Source: Symbiodinium natans (lineage: Eukaryota > Sar > Dinophyceae > Suessiales > Symbiodiniaceae). Taken from it: DNA of 64,000 bases. Position 1 is the first letter of the stretch. Every line of letters begins with the position of its first letter. Positions 15,248 through 62,545 of the stretch are shown in pieces. Position numbers and translations under genes: made by a program. Location: contig CAJNDS010002634.1 in NCBI GenBank assembly GCA_905221605.1, positions 868,001 to 932,000 of the forward strand. The letters are read 5' to 3'. The notes beneath the pieces are model-generated. The model did not search any database. It saw only the letters and a program-made list of their open reading frames with translations, and had not been told where the DNA came from.

Positions 15248-15483
15248 TCTAAGGACCCTTTTAGGCGTTGGAAAAAATTGACTGGAGGGTGTATGATTAT
15301 CTTGGTGACTAAAACTCAACAGCAAGACCGGGGCGAGAAGGGGGGAGGGGTTCATTTTCAGCTCCTGAGTTCTCCTGGTAAAATTCACTGGCTTAAGGCC
15401 TGGGGCAGAGGGAGGCAGCTTCCGCACACCTTGCTGCAGAAGGTCGTGAGGTTGAGCAGAGCGAAACCCTAAACCCTATCCCC

Positions 15484-15575
15484 GAATGGCATCCGATAAA
15501 ATTGGAACGACACAGAGAAGATTAGCATGGCCCCTGTGCAAGGATGACACGCACAAATCGAGAAGTGTACCAAGG
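15484..15575 (+). ncRNA. U6 spliceosomal snRNA copy with A tract
   Basis: The core matches eukaryotic U6: ATAAAATTGGAACGACACAG carrying the ACAGAGA box that pairs with the 5' splice site, then the AGC triad in GATTAGCATGGCC, the internal stem-loop CCCCTGTGCAAGGATGACAC and a 3' part ending ACCAAGG. It is followed by nine A (15576-15584), not the T run that ends Pol III genes, and is immediately flanked by CCCTAAA repeats on both sides. It could be a functional gene with unusual termination or a retroposed copy. One base of the internal stem-loop differs from the usual CTGCGCAAGG. Confidence 0.75.
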
Positions 15576-15598
15576 AAAAAAAAACCCTAAACCCTAAG

Positions 15599-17287: not shown

Positions 17288-17848
17288 AGGGTACCATTGC
17301 GTTGAATTGGTGACCTATAGTGGATCTTATGGTGAATGTTGACCTGGGGGTGCGCACGGCCCCCGACATCGATGTGAATGCTCTCGCCTGTGCACCCGCG
17401 CGAATCTCAAACGATGACTCTCTCGATGCTTCCGCGTGCCTGCAACCCTCTCGCCCACGCGCTGGCCCCCGCAAAGATCAACCCTAAAACCCAAACCCTA
17501 AACCCTAAAGAATTGAACTTCATGGCAGAGGCCACGTCGCGCTCTCGCCGAGGTCCCGTGCACATCTCGTACCCGAAATCGCGCTCCTGGGTTTAGGGTT
17601 GTGCCTGAATGTGACAGCCGAAGCCCATCTGTGGCAAGGCTCAAAGGTTTTGACGTGAGATGCCCTGAGTGCCGCGGGACCGGGTTTAGGGTTTAGGGCT
17701 TAGGGTGTAATCAAATAGCTTCCCGCACAAAACAAGGCTCAGTCTACCCCCTGCTCGGGTTGAAAGTTTCGGACTTGAGGCTAGCTTATGGGGTAGAATT
17801 GACCAGAGTTTTTTGAAGTGGAGGATGCCCCCCAATCTATCAAAGCCT

Positions 17849-18537: not shown

Positions 18538-18648
18538 CTTGGTAGCCCAGTGGTATTATTTGCCCTTTTTTTGTTTATGGTTTCTCTTGCAAAATAACCA
18601 ACCCCAAAAAGGGTGCCCTGATCATACTTTGGTTACTGGGCTACCATG
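18538..18648. mobile_element. family A introner-like TIR element, TSD CATA
   Basis: Begins CTTGGTAGCCCAGTGGTA, ends TGGTTACTGGGCTACCATG, and is flanked by CATA at 18534-18537 and 18649-18652. The core carries AAAAAGGGTGCCCTGATCAT. Same family as 35092, 42909 and 60530. Confidence 0.9.
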
Positions 18649-28677: not shown

Positions 28678-30302
28678 ATCCCCTATCCCGATCTTGAGAT
28701 GCTCTTTCTCCTGTTAGACGAGGAGCAGGGAGTCGATCAAACACCGTCGGTGGGGTTTAGGGTTTAGGGTTTAGGGTTTAGGGTTTAGGGTTTCGGGTTT
28801 CGGGTTTCGGGTTTCGGGTTGCCACTATTCAGCCCCCTCAAGAGAATCCAACCTCAAGAGGCAAGACCCTTCCGCTCTTTCATCGTGGGAACCCTACTTG
28901 AAGGTTCATGGGTAGTCATAAGTAGGGTTATACGTACCCTAAATAAGGTTATAACTAGTTATAAGCATAGTTCCCCTATTTATAACCCACTTTTACCTAC
29001 CCATGAACCTCCCAGGGAACCCTACCTAGAGTTACGGTTCAGGGGTTACCCCTCCAGGACAACAAAGGCCTTATACTAACAATCCTTCATTGGGATTATA
29101 GTACCCCCCCCCCCATTATAATCCCTATTAAGGACTGTTAGTATAAAGGGGAGCATCCCAAAGGCTACAGTACACCCTAAACCCTAAACCCTAAACCCTA
29201 AACCCTAAACCCTAAACCCTAAACCCTAAACCCTAAACCCTAACCCCATCCAGGACAACAAAGGCGTTATCAAGTGCGACTACTTCTTCCGCGGCGTAGC
29301 GAAGCTGCGAGGCCTAGCAAAGGCCAAAGACCTGCATCAGCTGACGCTTGGCCGAACACTTAAAGCATACTAAGTACCCTCTTCTTCTTTTTTCTTTTGG
29401 GAGGGGGCGGGGGGGGGGTGCAAGGGTCGGTTCTTTTTGGGGCTAAAGGTTTTGCATGGCCAGTGTGCTGAAGTCTAGATGCAGAAGGAGGTTTTGGGGT
29501 ATGTTGGCCCATTTGCTCTTGAGAAAGAGCACAGGGGAGGCATGCCTGGGCTCACAAGGGCTTCAGGGTTAAGGGGGGTTTTGGGTTTTGGGTTTAGGGT
29601 TTAGGGTTTAGGGGGGAATCTCCTAAACTACTTATGGGGGGCCCCCTCCCACAACATTTTTTCACGCATATGAAGCAAGGTCCATCGACCTTAATCGGCG
29701 CATGCTGTGGGTGGACGAGAACACTGGGAAGATTTCAGGCCCGACGTCGCATCTTGTGGTTCGTGGATGAGTTGCGCACCCTAAACCCCTAAACCCCTCA
29801 ACCCCTAAACCCCTAAACCCCTAAACCCCTAAACCCCTAAACCCTGAACCGCGCAGAAGCGAACGACATTTTGATGGACATGGTGGATCACCTGGACGAG
29901 ATGGATACCCACATCGTCAAAGGACCCACGACTCGTGACTGTAAGGCGCATGAATTTCCCCACCGCCCCAGACGCGACCACATGGAACACCAGCAGGTAG
30001 CAAAGTTTTAGGGTTTAGGGTTTAGGGTTTAGGGTTTAGGGTTTAGGGTTTAGGGTTTAGGGTTTAGGGTTTAGGGTTTAGGGCATGCAGCGTCCTTCTA
30101 TCGCTTTCCACTTCGGGTTCTTTGGTGTTTGACGGGTTTGGGTTGCCAGGAGCCTCAGACCCGAAAGCCTTAGACCCCCAATCCCCAAAAGCCCGGTCCA
30201 AACCTGAAAGCCCAATACCCTACAGTAAACCCTAAACCCTAAACCCTCAATGTGCAGGAGAAACAGATGGCAAAGATCCGGTGATCGCTGCCAGGTGTCT
30301 TT
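28678..30302 (+). CDS. EF-hand ion-channel-like gene, 3' exons
   Basis: Exons inferred at 28678-28722, 29254-29340 (or to 29371), 29676-29765, 29857-29940, 29972-29996 and 30257-30302. The first two join to LLDEDNKGVIKCDYFFRG, giving an EF-hand loop with D1, D3, G6 and I8; VAKLRGLAKAKDLHQL follows. That F-x-x-G-x-x-x-L-R-G-x-A-K-x-x-D arrangement is typical of the region after the pore domain in dinoflagellate voltage-gated cation channels. Downstream come SIDLNRRMLWVDENTGK and EANDILMDMVDHLDEMDTHI, helical. The first donor appears to be GA; the 29941 donor is GTAAGG. The channel pore lies outside these exons, so function is an inference. Confidence 0.5.
28753..28820. repeat. telomere-like array inside an intron
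   Basis: Six TTTAGGG units followed by four TTTCGGG variants, within the intron between 28722 and 29254. Confidence 0.9.
28894..29014. mobile_element. family D TIR element within intron
   Basis: CTTGAAGGTTCATGGGTAGT on the left, CTACCCATGAACCTCCCAGG on the right. The interior has GTTATAACTAGTTATAA, itself palindromic. Confidence 0.75.
29070..29162. mobile_element. family E element, left-truncated
   Basis: CTTATACTAACAATCCTT on the left and AAGGACTGTTAGTATAAAGG-GGAGCATCCC on the right, with a C run at 29105. It lies next to a 17-bp copy of the downstream exon boundary (TCCAGGACAACAAAGGC at 29053 and 29249). Confidence 0.75.
29173..29245. repeat. telomere-like CCCTAAA array directly upstream of an acceptor
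   Basis: Ten perfect CCCTAAA units, ending eight bases before the acceptor at 29252-29253. Confidence 0.95.
30006..30084. repeat. telomere-like TTTAGGG array
   Basis: Eleven perfect units, 10 bases after the GT donor at 29997. Confidence 0.95.
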
Positions 30303-30599: not shown

Positions 30600-32430
30600 C
30601 CCTAAACTGTAAGCCTGTAAGCCCTGAACGCCATGAATCATCTGAGGCGCAGCAGGGAGCCTGTCTCGAAAGGCACCAGGGTCGGGTGGCGCAGCTTCGG
30701 CTTGGGTTTTCTTGACATTTTTGGGCGCCGTAAGGGCTGTAATGTTTAGTTTCGACAGATTGCAAGGCATGCTTCTTTCAGTTTGTGACTGGTAAGTACC
30801 TCGCAGACGTTTGAAAGGCGCGTTGCCTGCCCAAAGAAGTGCAGCGCGGTCGGGGCGTGCGGAGTAGCCCTACGAATGTGTTCGATGAAACCACAGCCCG
30901 GTTCTGAAGTCTTAAGTGTCAGGGTGGGCAGTTCCGCCCTACCAACCCTATAAGTACCTATGAGCCTGATGAATCCTCAACCCTAACGGCCTTTGTACGA
31001 TGGTTCCAGGGCCTTCGAGTTGTTCTGTGCTTGTTTTCTGGCAGTTTAGGGTTTAGGGTGTAGGGTTTAGGGTCGGAGACCAGTCCAGTTGCCGTCGGAG
31101 TTTGTGCTTTGGGACTCCCTGTTTTGTTTGCTTGAAGTGTCCTGCGTCAGGGAGTTATAAGCAAGAATAAGTGGGGTCAAACGCCGTTTGCAGAATATTA
31201 TGACCAGAGAAGTTGGTTACCCATGAACCTTCAACTGGCAGGGTTGGGACTTCGAGGGTTAAGGCAGACTCGCAACTGGGACGGAAAGTCGTGGAATGTG
31301 CAACCCTTCCCCTAAACCCTTGACCCTGAACCGTTTGGGCAGGGCGAATCCTGCGCGGCGTTTGGAAGGACGGCCGCAACCTGAGTCTCAAAAGAACGAC
31401 GATGTCTTGCGTTTTAGGCAGGGGGGTGCTCGAAGGCCCTCAACCTGCAACCCCAGTCAGGTTTGGCTTCCAAGGACCCAGAGTAGGCCCTCACTGCCTT
31501 TGTTTTAGGGTTATGATTCCTGCATACTGATTTCAGGCTCTGGTGTGCAGTTGCCTGCATGCGCATGAGCGTCTCTTTGCTGCGTCGCGCTAGGCTTCTC
31601 TTATTGACAGGTCGCACACGCGCGATCCTCTTTTACTGTCACTATAGGCTTGGAGATGTTGAGGTTCCGGCTTTCAGGAGGAGTCAAAGAAAGGGATTCT
31701 AGAGATGTGCGTGTAGGTGTCTAGCATTAAGGGTCAGGGTTTCAGATTTAGGTTGTCTGCATGTTAGACGTACTCCGAGCATCTGTTTAATTGGGCCCCC
31801 CCCCACAATAAGAAAGGCAGGTATTGATTCTCGATTTAAAAACAACACGAATGTATTGAAAACAATAGGAATGTATAGAATCTCTATTCAAACTGAATAA
31901 CAAAGAATTGACTATCTATAAAAAACAATAGGAATGTACTGAATCTTTATGAAAAAGAGAAGGAAAATTCCTTTAAATGTGGTGGGTTTGCACCATACGA
32001 AATCCACCTACTGGAAAGTAGTCTTCCGGCAGGCTTCCGGCCAAAAAAAAACTCCTTTAAATGTGGGGGGGGGGGGGGTATTAATTAAACAGATGCTCGG
32101 ATTACCTGCTGCGGTGTTTCCAGGCACGGCTTGTTGAGTGTTCGGGTCCCTATACTATTTGCTGAAGAACCCCCAAAGAATAAAGAATAGTCATCCCTAT
32201 TCTACACTTAATATGGAAGAATGTTTTATTTTCTCGGGGTTCTTAGGGATCGAATCCGATTCTTGGGTCAAGAGGATAAAGCGACAGGCGCTTCGGACGG
32301 CACCCTGAGAATCCAACTCTATCCGAGCCCATACACCCTAAACCCTCTAACCCTAAACCCTCTAACCCTAAACCCCCTAAACCCCCTAAACACCCTAAAC
32401 CCCCAACCCCCAAACCCCCAGAACCCATCT
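30600..32430. other. no confident gene; repeats and element fragments
   Basis: Contains family D (31212) and family B (31476) end fragments, a weak + open frame near 31360-31410, the inverted-repeat element 31774-32100 and a family J-like copy at 32150. Confidence 0.4.
31774..32100. mobile_element. 327-bp inverted-repeat element
   Basis: CCGAGCATCTGTTTAATT at the left and ATTAAACAGATGCTCGG at the right, with C and G homopolymers just inside. The interior is AT-rich with repeated AACAATAGGAATGTA and CTTTAAATGTGG words. Confidence 0.75.
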
Positions 32431-35091: not shown

Positions 35092-35201
35092 CTTGGTAGC
35101 CCAGTGGCACCCTTTTCCCTTTTTGTGGTTCAAGGTTCCCTTTTAAATTTACCAACCAAAAAAGGGTGCCCTTATTGTAATATGGTTACTGGGGTACTAA
35201 G
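35092..35201. mobile_element. family A introner, TSD ACAA/ATAA
   Basis: CTTGGTAGCCCAGTGGCACC at the left, GGTTACTGGGGTACTAAG at the right; AAAAAAGGGTGCCCTTATTG inside. The flanking four bases differ at one position. Confidence 0.8.
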
Positions 35202-36544: not shown

Positions 36545-36642
36545 CTGGGACCCAGAGTAGGCCCTCATGCCTTGTCGTATTATAAGCCCCTTTAAACCAA
36601 AAAGGGTACCCTTTTTGATTCCTAGGTTACTCCTGGGTCTAG
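36545..36642. mobile_element. family B introner-like element, TSD GTGT/GTAT
   Basis: CTGGGACCCAGAGTAGGCCC at the left, TAGGTTACTCCTGGGTCTAG at the right, with AAGCCCCTTTAAACCAAAAA inside. GT begins the left flank and AG ends the element, so it could splice as GT-AG. Confidence 0.8.
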
Positions 36643-42872: not shown

Positions 42873-43163
42873 TCTACCTGCAGGCAAGGGACTTCCAAGC
42901 TTTCATAGCTTGGTAGCCCAGTGGTACCCTCTACTTTTTTTGTTTATGGTTTCCCTTATCAAATACCCTAAACCCTAAACCCTAAACCCACAAAAGGGTG
43001 CCCTTATCACAATATGGTTACTGGGCTACCATGACAGATAGTTGCACCCTGGCTGCGGCAGTTGGCCCTTCCTCAAGGTCTGGCCGCACGGGTGGATGCA
43101 GATGCTGACATTTGCTACTGCGAAGCAAAGCATGTGCAGCTTGCAGCTCAGCTTCTGAACTTC
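42873..43163 (+). CDS. exon split by a family A introner, unknown protein
   Basis: 42873-42908 (YLQARDFQAFI) joins to 43042-43163 (VAPWLRQLALPQGLAARVDA, DADICYCEAKHVQLAAQLLN) when the element and one ATAG copy are removed. The donor at 43164 is the GT of a TTTAGGG-like unit. Family not recognised; the position suggests the upstream part of the SecA-like gene. Confidence 0.55.
42909..43037. mobile_element. family A introner with nested telomere repeats, TSD ATAG
   Basis: CTTGGTAGCCCAGTGGTACC at the left; GGTTACTGGGCTACCATGACAG at the right. ATAG occurs on both sides (42905-42908, 43038-43041). Four CCCTAAA-like units sit in the loop between the two halves. Confidence 0.9.
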
Positions 43164-50160: not shown

Positions 50161-50247
50161 AGGACAGCCAGGACTCGCAGACTCCGGTGCCAAAGCCGCC
50201 ACCGGCCGAGTGGTGCCCGCAAAGTATTGAAAACCCAGAGTCGCCCT
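50161..50247 (+). CDS. possible exon, proline-rich
   Basis: After AACAGCAG the frame reads DSQDSQTPVPKPPPAEWCPQ then SIENPESP, ending in a CCCTAAA array. Likely a disordered linker of an unidentified protein. Confidence 0.35.
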
Positions 50248-50325
50248 AAACCCTAAACCCTAAACCCTAAACCCTAAACCCTAAACCCTAAACCCTAAAC
50301 CCTAAACCCTAAACCCTAAACCCTA
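50244..50325. repeat. telomere-like CCCTAAA array
   Basis: Eleven perfect units. From 50330 to 51880 no confident gene is seen; there are (TA)n at 50601-50619, a family K copy at 51133-51230, and a weak frame around 50860-50950. Confidence 0.95.
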
Positions 50326-53612: not shown

Positions 53613-54116
53613 GTGAGTCCCGTAGATGCTAGACAGCCAGTTTCTTGAAAGTACTGCCTATATACATGCTGTCCCGAATCGCAGATGTCAGTCTGAAGAT
53701 CTGAGAGAAAAAGAAAGGACCAACTGAAGGAGATAAGTTTCTTTCGCGCTTAAAGGGTGCTTCACCCTCAAGGTTGCCAGACGTTTTTTTGCCCTAAACC
53801 CTAAACCCTAAACCCTAAACCCTAAACCCTAAACCCTAAACCCTAAACCTGCCCCTGTGAGTCGGACAGCCGCCACTTCACTTTGTTCTCACGCACCTCT
53901 TCCGCGGCGTTGGTGCGGAGGACATGGCTGCGGTGTCTTGAAAGCACCCCACGGATCTTTCTGAAGAGTTCAAGTTTAGATCTGCAGGTACCCCTAGCAG
54001 AGCCAGGATAAAATGCGAGACGAGCCGTACCTATGGCTCTCGCCTTTTAAACATGGGAGCCCAAGAGTACGGAACTGCCTCTTCTACTTTGTAATGAGAG
54101 ACCTTAAACTCCCAAA

Positions 54117-54207
54117 CCCTAAACCCTAAACCCTAAACCCTAAACCCTAAACCCTAAACCCTAAACCCTAAACCCTAAACCCTAAACCCTAAACCCTAAA
54201 CCCTAAC
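54117..54207. repeat. telomere-like CCCTAAA array
   Basis: Thirteen perfect units, one of the longest uninterrupted arrays in the window. From 53620 to 54110 no other gene is confident. Confidence 0.95.
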
Positions 54208-59657: not shown

Positions 59658-60353
59658 GCTCCTTAGAAGCCACGGGTCCTTTAGGTAAACAGGCTGGTAG
59701 GTCCCGACAATAGGGCAGGATTTTGATGGCTTGGTCTCCGGACAGTCCAAAGCTTAAGTGTCCAGGGGGTTTGATGGTGTAGTCAGGCAGAGCAGTAACC
59801 GAGGGGAAGCCACATACTTGTTTTTGCTCATCTCTGTGTGGGGTGAGTTCTCTTGTGGTCCCTTCTTGGGCACCCTAATTATTCGGGGCAGCCTTATAAT
59901 AGTTACCGCCTATCCAGTATCTCAGAGCCACAGGAGCGAATTCTGTTGCGCGAGTCCTGCGTCATCTTCTGTAGAGCTTTTGTAGGTGATCGTGTTTGCG
60001 CGATTCTGCACGTCCTGAGTGGGTGGCTTTTGTAACTCTGCTTGGGTTGGTTTGCCCTGTGAAGGAGTCTGCCTTCGACTTCAAGCGCCGTGAGGACTAG
60101 CAGAGCACAAGTGGGAGCAGAGTGCACGGGGAGCCCAGTCTTCGGAGCTGCTTTGGGTTTGGGGCTTAGGGCGCTTAGGGTTTAGGGTTTGGGGTTTAGG
60201 GTTTAGGGTTGAGGGTGGATGAGATGTAGGGAAGCAACATGAAGCCTACCCAACACAACCCTAGCTCTGGGTCGACATGGCTACGGCTCAAGCTTTTCCC
60301 CGCACCACTCCAGACATATTGGCCTCGAAGCCTTTAGCTACATTCGTTCGACC

Positions 60354-62159
60354 ATGGCTTCTGTGGATGCGACCATGAAGGCCATCAACAGTGCCTGCCG
60401 ATCCAAAGGAGGCCACTACGCCTCCTACAGCTGCCAAGTAGTCTCTTGGGATGACGTCAGCCGTGGGACCGTCGGCGGCGCCCTCTCTTGCTGGGGGGCA
60501 AACATCACTGACACCTATTTGAAGAGCAACTTGGTAGCCCAGTGGTACCCTTTACGCTTTGTCTGGGTTTCCCTTATAAAATCACCAACCCGAAAAAGGG
60601 TGCCCTCATTATAATATGGTTACTGGGCTACCAAGGCAAGAACGGCCAACAGCTTTTCACGGTGCGCAGCGACAACTGGAACGAGAAGCTCGGCGTCGTC
60701 CCTTCGGATCAGGTGGCGGTCGTAGCCTCCCACTCTGACGGCCCACCTCAGCCCGTGACCCTCCGGATCCTGCTGCAGCAGATGGGCACCTAGGACCCAG
60801 AGTATAGGCCATCATTCCCTTTTTTAGGGTTTATGTAGGTTCCCCTACAAGCACCTTTAAACCAAGAAGCGCACAAGGCACTTATGGCTCCTACGCTGGC
60901 CTTGATGCACAGACCGACCTCTCCGACCCCAACCTGGACACGCACTGCTCCATCCGCTTCCAGACCACCTTCATTCCAGTGGAGGACTGCGCGGATGGCA
61001 AGTCAAGGCTGGAGTTCGCCACAGAAGCCTACAACTACAACACCATGAACGATGCCGATCCGCGCAATCTCGTCTTGCTGTGCACCAGCCAGGGCATGGC
61101 TGTGCAGCAGGATGGACGGGGCACGAAGCAGCTATTTCACCACGCCGTGGATGGAGAGGGCCAGATCCACCGCTACTGGCTGGAGGCAGAAGAGAGCCGA
61201 CACAAGGTCGGCGGTGAGCAAAGGGAGACCCTGCAGGAGCGTGCCGAGGCCTTGATCCGCGGCAAGGCGACGTCCAGCGTCATTGGCATCCAGGCCATGG
61301 GCCAGCGCTTCAACGTGCTGATGACCATCCAGGTGCCCTTGCAGCAGCAGCGAGGAGGTGCTTTCGGAATGGCGGTGCCCTTCGGCATGTTCGGTGCTGT
61401 GTGTGCGGGAGGGGCAGCTGAGATGGAGGAGGAGGATGACTTGTATGGCTTCACATTGGTGCAGGCGTGCCCCCGCTCGGCCCGCTCGGCCCCCTCATTC
61501 TGGTCGAGCATGATGCCTACTAGAGGAACCACCAGCGCAGCGCGGGTGTCGCGGGGCACAGAGCATGACATTTGGGCAGGCCTCTCCATCAAGTCTCCTA
61601 AGCGACATGCTTCCGAGCACGTGACGGTCACTGTGGTGATCTACAACGCTGTGAAAGGCGGCGTGCCCAGCCAGCAGGACGTTCCTTGGGGACCAAAGGA
61701 ACCCTAAAAGGGTTTATTGTTCATATACCCTAATACCCTAATAGTAGTATAGTATAGGGTATACCTTTATAGGGACTATGCTAGTATACAGGGTATAGGG
61801 CCCCCAATTCTCGGGTTCAAGTGGTCCCCAAGGTTGCGGCAGCCATTGACGATCTCGAGGCCCTCTATAACGCCTGTGCCGTCCAGGGCCGGCTTGCGGA
61901 TGCGAAGCTCCTTGCAGACCAAGATGAAGCCCAAAAGGGTTATATGGGTTCATATAGACCCTTAAACGCAGGGAATGTATCAGTAGAGGGTATATGACCC
62001 CCCCCCCCCCCCCCCCCCAATCTAGGGCTCATGTGGTCCCCAAGGTTCGACTTCATGAAGGAGCAGCTGAAGGTTGACGACCTGGTCGACATCACCTCGA
62101 AGCTGACCTTCCAGCCCCCAAAGGTAGATGTCCTCTACCACGATGTCTTTCCGGCCTGA
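60354..62159 (+). CDS. complete conserved-looking protein of unknown function, 447 aa, five exons
   Basis: Exons 60354-60525, 60636-60785, 60878-61680, 61833-61936 and 62045-62159 total 1344 nt, exactly 448 codons including TGA. It starts MASVDATMKAINSACRSKGG, with SCQVVSWDDVSRGTVGGALS, SKNGQQLFTVRSDNWNEKLG, CSIRFQTTFIPVED, FATEAYNYNTMNDADPRNLV, and ends DVLYHDVFPA. No signal peptide or membrane span is visible; an acidic EEEDD stretch follows a Gly/Ala/Met-rich loop. I do not recognise a named domain. All four introns are short. Introns 1 and 2 use GC donors and intron 3 GT; intron 4 seems to start GG. No telomere arrays lie inside, unlike its neighbours. Confidence 0.82.
60530..60635. mobile_element. 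family A introner = intron 1, TSD GCAA
   Basis: CTTGGTAGCCCAGTGGTACC ... GGTTACTGGGCTACCAAG, with GCAA at 60526-60529 and 60636-60639. Splicing from the GC of the left GCAA to the terminal AAG removes exactly one duplication and restores AAG-AGC-AAG-AAC (KSKN). Confidence 0.95.
60790..60877. mobile_element. family B introner = intron 2, TSD GCAC
   Basis: Left end CTAGGACCCAGAGTATAGGC; the right end is degenerate (CACAAG). GCAC at 60786-60789 and 60878-60881. GC-AG removal restores ATG-GGC-ACT-TAT (MGTY). Confidence 0.9.
61685..61832. mobile_element. family I introner = intron 3, TSD GTTC/GTTG
   Basis: CTTGGGGACCAAAGGAACCC at the left, GGTTCAAGTGGTCCCCAAG at the right. GT of the left flank and AG of the TIR end give a GT-AG intron 61681-61832 and join QQD to VAAAID. 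Confidence 0.92.
61937..62044. mobile_element. family I introner = intron 4, left end degenerate
   Basis: The right end GGCTCATGTGGTCCCCAAG is intact. The left end is GGGTTATATGGGTTCATATA without the CTTGGGG tip. A C run lies at 61998-62018. The only frame-preserving join found uses a GG donor. Confidence 0.8.
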
Positions 62160-62346: not shown

Positions 62347-62439
62347 GCCTGCAGCCAAAGAGGCTTCAGGTGGAGCCCCTAGGAGACCCTCAACCCACTT
62401 GAGGACCAGCTGAACCCCAACATTGGGGGGGTCCTATAC

Positions 62440-62545
62440 TACTATACTACTCTATGAATGCTAAGGTGCATGAAGCTCACCCTCAACCCTAAACCCTAAA
62501 CCCTAAACCCGAAACACTTCTAGGGTTCACGTGGTCCCCAAGGTT
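62440..62545. mobile_element. probable family I copy
   Basis: The right end GGGTTCACGTGGTCCCCAAG matches family I, with CCCTAAA units upstream. The left end is unclear. Confidence 0.5.

Follow-up and report, generated by a model that had tools for sequence, protein, structure and literature searches.

Introns 1, 3 and 4 of a gene in Symbiodinium natans, and probably intron 2 as well, are in all likelihood introners: non-autonomous, MITE-like DNA transposons that landed in exons and are now read as introns. The gene lies on the plus strand at 60354–62159 of the window, by which we mean the whole stretch of 64,000 nucleotides analysed here. Each of introns 1, 3 and 4 holds an element with inverted ends that extends exactly from the flanking tetramer to the terminal AG. 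The core of this proposal, that transposons turned into introns, was made in an initial annotation of the same DNA. For introns 1, 3 and 4 it stands on the intron boundaries, the inverted ends and the reading frame; for intron 2 it is plausible only. The gene is a well-supported further case of intron formation by a route already published.

Four introns interrupt one conserved reading frame

The initial annotation had placed a gene with three introns here, and this gene was borne out: the spliced frame is open, and a protein search found homologues. The donors, acceptors and flanking tetramers given for introns 1–3 also proved correct (Table 1). The predicted product did not. It had been put at 447 codons, but removing introns 1–3 alone leaves an in-frame stop. 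Translation carried on from exon 4 meets a stop at 61995–61997, which calls for a fourth intron, absent from that annotation. Once all four introns are removed, the product comprises 437 codons, or 1311 coding bases, with no stop or frameshift. For a product of 447 codons and the acceptor at 62044, the arithmetic puts the donor at 61937, where the sequence reads GG.

To place the 5′ end of intron 4, we scanned all GT, GC, GA and AT dinucleotides from 61880 to 61959 with the acceptor fixed at 62044. Four donors kept the frame open, and only 61907 gave the residue count of the related proteins. The resulting junction, RLADAK/FDFMK, aligned without a gap in 20 of 20 relatives. The other three donors (61892, 61904 and 61952) were rejected, since each loses or gains residues relative to these proteins.

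Table 1 Features of the gene and of related elements in the window. Positions count from the first base of the window.
Feature	Position	Strand	Length, splice sites, phase	Flanking tetramers	Remarks
Exon 1	60354..60525	+			begins with ATG; ends in phase 1
Intron 1	60526..60635	+	110 nt, GC-AG, phase 1	GCAA (60526–60529) / GCAA (60636–60639)	family-1 element plus putative left target copy
Intron 1, left terminal inverted repeat	60530..60543	+			CTTGGTAGCCCAGT; perfect 14-nt match to 60622–60635
Intron 1, right terminal inverted repeat	60622..60635	+			terminates in the acceptor AAG
Exon 2	60636..60785	+
Intron 2	60786..60877	+	92 nt, GC-AG, phase 1	GCAC (60786–60789) / GCAC (60878–60881)	family-2-like element; left end CTAGGACCCAGAG
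Exon 3	60878..61680	+
Intron 3	61681..61832	+	152 nt, GT-AG, phase 0	GTTC (61681–61684) / GTTG (61833–61836)	family-3 element
Exon 4	61833..61906	+
Intron 4	61907..62044	+	138 nt, GC-AG, phase 2	GCTC (61907–61910) / GTTC (62045–62048)	second family-3 copy
Exon 5	62045..62159	+			includes the stop codon
Family-1 copy	18538..18648	+		CATA/CATA	terminates in ATG
Family-1 copy	35092..35201	+		ACAA/ATAA (3/4)	terminates in AAG
Family-1 copy	42909..43033	+		ATAG/ACAG (3/4)	terminates in ATG
Family-2 copy, both ends	36545..36642	+		GTGT/GTAT (3/4)	ends set by eye

The protein search scored 8000 candidates and returned 467 homologues at E ≤ 1e-3; homologue details rest on the best 120 of these 467. 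Named homologues among the best 120 come from Symbiodinium (70–73% identity), Effrenium (66–69%) and Durusdinium (59%). This set also contains P0023 (61%), whose Skav name we take to denote Fugacium kawagutii. For the alignment, 21 proteins were chosen from the best 120; 20 of them span the junctions, and P0062, the window's own partial frame, was excluded. Transcriptome-type names (MMETSP, Trinity, MRDRNA2) are carried by 9 of the 20 aligned relatives. We checked about five residues on either side of each junction: 19 of 20 rows were free of gaps at intron 1, and all 20 were at each of introns 2, 3 and 4.

The sole exception was P0023, which has one extra lysine exactly at the junction of intron 1. 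This lysine could mark an intron at that position, which would give intron 1 an older date. It may also be a gene-model error, given that the same row has a second one-residue insertion close to its start. A search for orthologous DNA with peptide patterns matched 27 stretches in the viral_contigs set and 173 in the genome_contigs set, none of which encodes a relative. The 16-mer CTTGGTAGCCCAGTGG was present in nine viral_contigs entries, about the number that a rough estimate predicts by chance.

The spliced protein had no confident Pfam family, the only match being DUF2525 (E 0.14; 12.7 bits, with the cut-off at 27), and no confident relative among solved structures, where a single match had E 0.44. 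GC content was 43–54% in the introns versus 61% in the exons.

A gene interrupted in this way could be a pseudogene, its elements plain insertions that are never spliced. The lengths of introns 1–3, which are not multiples of three, and the in-frame stop within intron 4 are what such a copy might show. Against this, at every junction the number of residues comes out as in the relatives, all four introns combine a GT or GC donor with an AG acceptor, and the 1311 coding bases are intact. We therefore regard a pseudogene as very improbable, and the gene as probably spliced in S. natans at the predicted sites.

Inverted ends lie close to the splice sites in introns 1, 3 and 4

Intron 1 has perfect inverted ends (Table 1). 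Those of intron 3, CTTGGGGACCA... and ...TGGTCCCCAAG, were found by the repeat search as 26 nt at 81% identity. Intron 4 has a decayed left end (CTTGCAGACCAAGATGAAGCCC) and is laid out like introns 1 and 3: GCTC, CTTGCAGACCAAGATGAAGCCC, an interior, GGGCTCATGTGGTCCCCAAG, and then the exonic GTTC.

The initial annotation had assigned inverted ends to introns 1–3. This held for introns 1 and 3 and failed for intron 2, which has no inverted right end and for which the repeat search lists no bounding inverted pair. In an anchored test, we aligned the two ends of each element and compared the score with those of 3000 random window pairs. The scores of introns 1, 3 and 4 were reached by 0.17%, 0.03% and 0.27% of random pairs, respectively, and that of intron 2 by 69%. 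Intron 2 is not counted here as an element with inverted ends.

RNA folding gave a matching picture. In introns 1, 3 and 4, predicted hairpins pair the two ends, with z-scores of -5.5, -3.3 and -1.8, where intron 3 was folded minus its last three bases. No shuffle out of 200 folded as well as intron 1 or intron 3; for intron 4, 11 of 200 did, a modest gain over shuffles. The predicted fold of intron 2 was ordinary (z -0.65, 50 of 200 shuffles as good), and its ends are not joined.

The elements form two detectably distinct groups

Family 1 has four copies in the window: intron 1 and three near-full copies outside the gene. One of the latter (42909–43033) contains a short CCCTAAA-repeat insert. 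Two of the three (18538–18648 and 42909–43033) end in ATG rather than AG, and thus offer no plus-strand acceptor as placed. On the minus strand, the end of both is still CCAAG.

Family 2 is represented outside the gene by one copy with both ends, CTGGGACCCAGAGTA... and, as the reverse complement of its other end, CTAGACCCAGGAGTA, and by partial copies near 17847 and 31472. In the family-alignment comparison, the two-ended copy was taken with its bounds one base leftward of those in Table 1. Directly after the tetramer, the left end of intron 2, CTAGGACCCAGAG, begins to match CTGGGACCCAGAG of a family-2 copy; for the right part of the intron, the alignment is confined to the interior of copies of this family.

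The initial annotation had described the elements as three unrelated families, a view that the alignments contradict on two counts. First, families 1 and 2 align collinearly over most of their length. When three family-1 copies were compared with intron 2 and with the family-2 copies at 17847 and 36544, between 0 and 0.45% of 2000 random stretches of the window scored as high. With the fourth family-1 copy included, the twelve pairs gave z-scores of 4.0 to 6.8 against 200 dinucleotide shuffles each. Values were lower for the partial copy near 31472 against family 1 (z 0.4 to 3.2), and for the fourth family-1 copy, which contains telomere-like repeats, 7–16% of random window stretches scored as high against family 2. 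Second, introns 3 and 4 belong to one family: their local alignment score of 38.5 was reached by 0.15% of 2000 random window stretches, and in both introns the element extends to the splice sites.

Family 3 had no detectable relation to family 1 in eight comparisons (6–83% of stretches scored as high). Against family 2, one of four comparisons, between introns 2 and 3, was borderline (1.7%, z 3.1), and the other three lay at 9–19%. By sequence comparison, then, the detectably distinct groups of elements number two rather than three: group A, comprising families 1 and 2, and group B, comprising family 3.

Five family-3-like stretches lie outside the introns, near 2898, 15977, 33806, 58928 and 62398, and by eye none had clear matching flanks. 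The last of these, an element at 62398–62542 just 3′ of the gene, has inverted ends CTTGAGGACCAGCTGAACCCC and CTTGGGGACCACGTGAACCCTAG and unmatched flanks.

These comparisons bear most directly on intron 2, which might have had a separate origin from the other three, either as an ordinary intron or as an element that inserted inside a pre-existing intron. Its missing inverted ends and ordinary fold fit such an origin, as does its right end (...GCGCACAAG), since the right part of the intron resembles only the family-2 interior. The match of its left end to family 2 immediately after the tetramer argues in the other direction, together with the exact GCAC/GCAC flanks and a length of a mere 92 nt. 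We consider a separate origin possible but less likely, and favour reading intron 2 as a copy of family 2 that appears to have lost its right end. Its removal restores the frame, as does that of each of the other three introns; the right extent of the element within it is uncertain.

Flanking tetramers suggest a four-base target duplication

Across the four introns, the paired tetramers agree at 14 of 16 bases. By themselves, these tetramers are weak evidence. Among all 24 possible pairings of the same tetramers, 14 agreements were reached by the observed pairing and by one other. A generic scan of the window found exact 4-bp flanks at 4 of 273 14-nt inverted pairs, intron 1 included; six offset controls of the same type gave 1, 2, 3, 4, 2 and 0, so that the real count was not above the controls. 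The tetramers count because they abut the ends of the elements and because family-1 copies elsewhere show flanks of the same length.

For family 1 this length was constant: all four copies in the window have a 4-bp flanking repeat, exact in two and matching at 3 of 4 bases in the other two. The flanks of the copies outside the gene (Table 1) point to a 4-bp target duplication that would be independent of the splice consensus. In family 3, the flanks match at 3 of 4 bases in intron 3 and again in intron 4.

The weakness of the tetramers leaves room for another account, in which old, ordinary introns were later hit by MITE-like elements and the tetramers mirror the splice consensus, with a G after the acceptor and a GY donor. 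The pairing statistics are compatible with this account, and so are the decay of introns 3 and 4, the family-3-like stretches that lack clear flanks, and the extra residue of P0023 at the first junction. It is harder to reconcile with introns 1, 3 and 4, where the element fills the intron from its fifth base to the acceptor and no older intron sequence is left, or with the family-1 copies outside the gene, none of whose 4-bp flanks starts with G. We judge it improbable, and favour insertion of the elements into exons.

A model for the origin of the introns

On this favoured reading, each insertion, presumably catalysed by a transposase, would have duplicated four bases of the target. The left copy, starting with GC or GT, would have become the 5′ splice site, and the 3′ end of the element (...AAG) would have provided the AG acceptor. 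The right copy would remain exonic, and splicing would thus bring back the original reading frame. With inverted ends that begin with CT, the element would end in AG in either orientation, which would make it a ready acceptor both ways. Introns 1 and 2 would derive from group A, introns 3 and 4 from group B.

The four introns may also be arranged as a series of decay. Intron 1 has perfect ends, those of intron 3 match at 81%, those of intron 4 are ragged, and intron 2 has apparently lost one end. Such a series within one gene suggests how an introner may decay until it looks like an ordinary intron.

A bolder proposal is that every intron of the gene is an introner with CT...AG ends and a 4-bp duplication, and that a single lineage of transposase rebuilt a gene that was once intronless, perhaps through retroposition. 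We put this forward tentatively, as something that may well not be so. A relic of the dinoflagellate spliced leader upstream of the ATG was considered as a sign of retroposition and rejected. Only the last eight bases of the leader, GGCTCAAG, occur there (60285–60292, 61 bases before the ATG), which is too short, and the counts are near chance: the window holds four occurrences against 2.98 expected. A 12-base stretch of the leader with at most two mismatches was found 10 times in the window against 9.64 expected, with none near the ATG site. For comparison, a published search for spliced-leader relics used BLASTn with a word size of 9, according to its description (PMC8045281).

Relation to known introners

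In Micromonas and Aureococcus, Huff et al. (2016) reportedly described DNA transposons that give one splice site while the target duplication helps to form the other. The splice-site logic is similar to that proposed here, but the algae and the element families are different.

Although the initial annotation implied novelty, the same logic is in print for Symbiodinium (PMC9860276), and many introner families per dinoflagellate genome have been reported (PMC11453091). The introners of Symbiodinium microadriaticum (Gozashti et al. 2022) have 4-bp duplications and inverted ends, according to the legend of Fig. 2B, and carry the 3′ splice site within the element while the duplication supplies the 5′ splice site (PMC9860276). 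The example in that figure belongs to their family 1 and lies on scaffold LSRX01000224.1 (86725–86839). By description, the S. natans introns are alike in all four respects, and on protein similarity the two algae probably share a family, Symbiodiniaceae. Gozashti et al. also describe introner families that lack inverted ends (PMC9860276), and the missing ends of intron 2 therefore do not alone exclude an introner.

For Polarella glacialis and other dinoflagellates, Roy et al. (2023), as summarised in PMC11453091, reported 15 introner families with at least 100 introns each. The likeness lies in the presence of several kinds of introner in one dinoflagellate genome; the difference is one of scale, genome-wide there and at base level in four introns of one gene here. 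The GC donors seen in this gene are of a kind common in the lineage, GC and GA donors being given as widespread in dinoflagellates, at 25–74% in Symbiodiniaceae (PMC11453091). The introner elements of Amoebophrya (Farhat et al. 2021) have inverted repeats of 8–20 nt and direct repeats of 3–5 nt over the exon/intron borders (PMC7789003). They resemble the S. natans introns in both features, but they are reported mainly from introns whose splice motifs are non-canonical, whereas those of the S. natans gene are all GT-AG or GC-AG.

Among groups of Symbiodiniaceae, 3–5% of genes are stated to contain introner elements (PMC11114475); by that figure, a single gene with three or four would stand out. 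In the open literature library we found no paper on multiple introner families within the same gene, a result that does not imply absence from print. With both the mechanism and the lineage already published, the gene adds an example at base level rather than a principle.

Other features of the window

Ten other open reading frames were scanned, nine taken from the 36 that reach 130 aa and one of 93 aa, and none of these ten had a Pfam match at E ≤ 0.1. Repeat arrays of the TTTAGGG type are numerous across the window, for example at 30007–30083, 50244–50325 and 54101–54206. The window also contains a full-length U6 spliceosomal RNA gene on the plus strand at 15473–15579 (Rfam RF00026, 85.8 bits, model positions 1–105 of 105).
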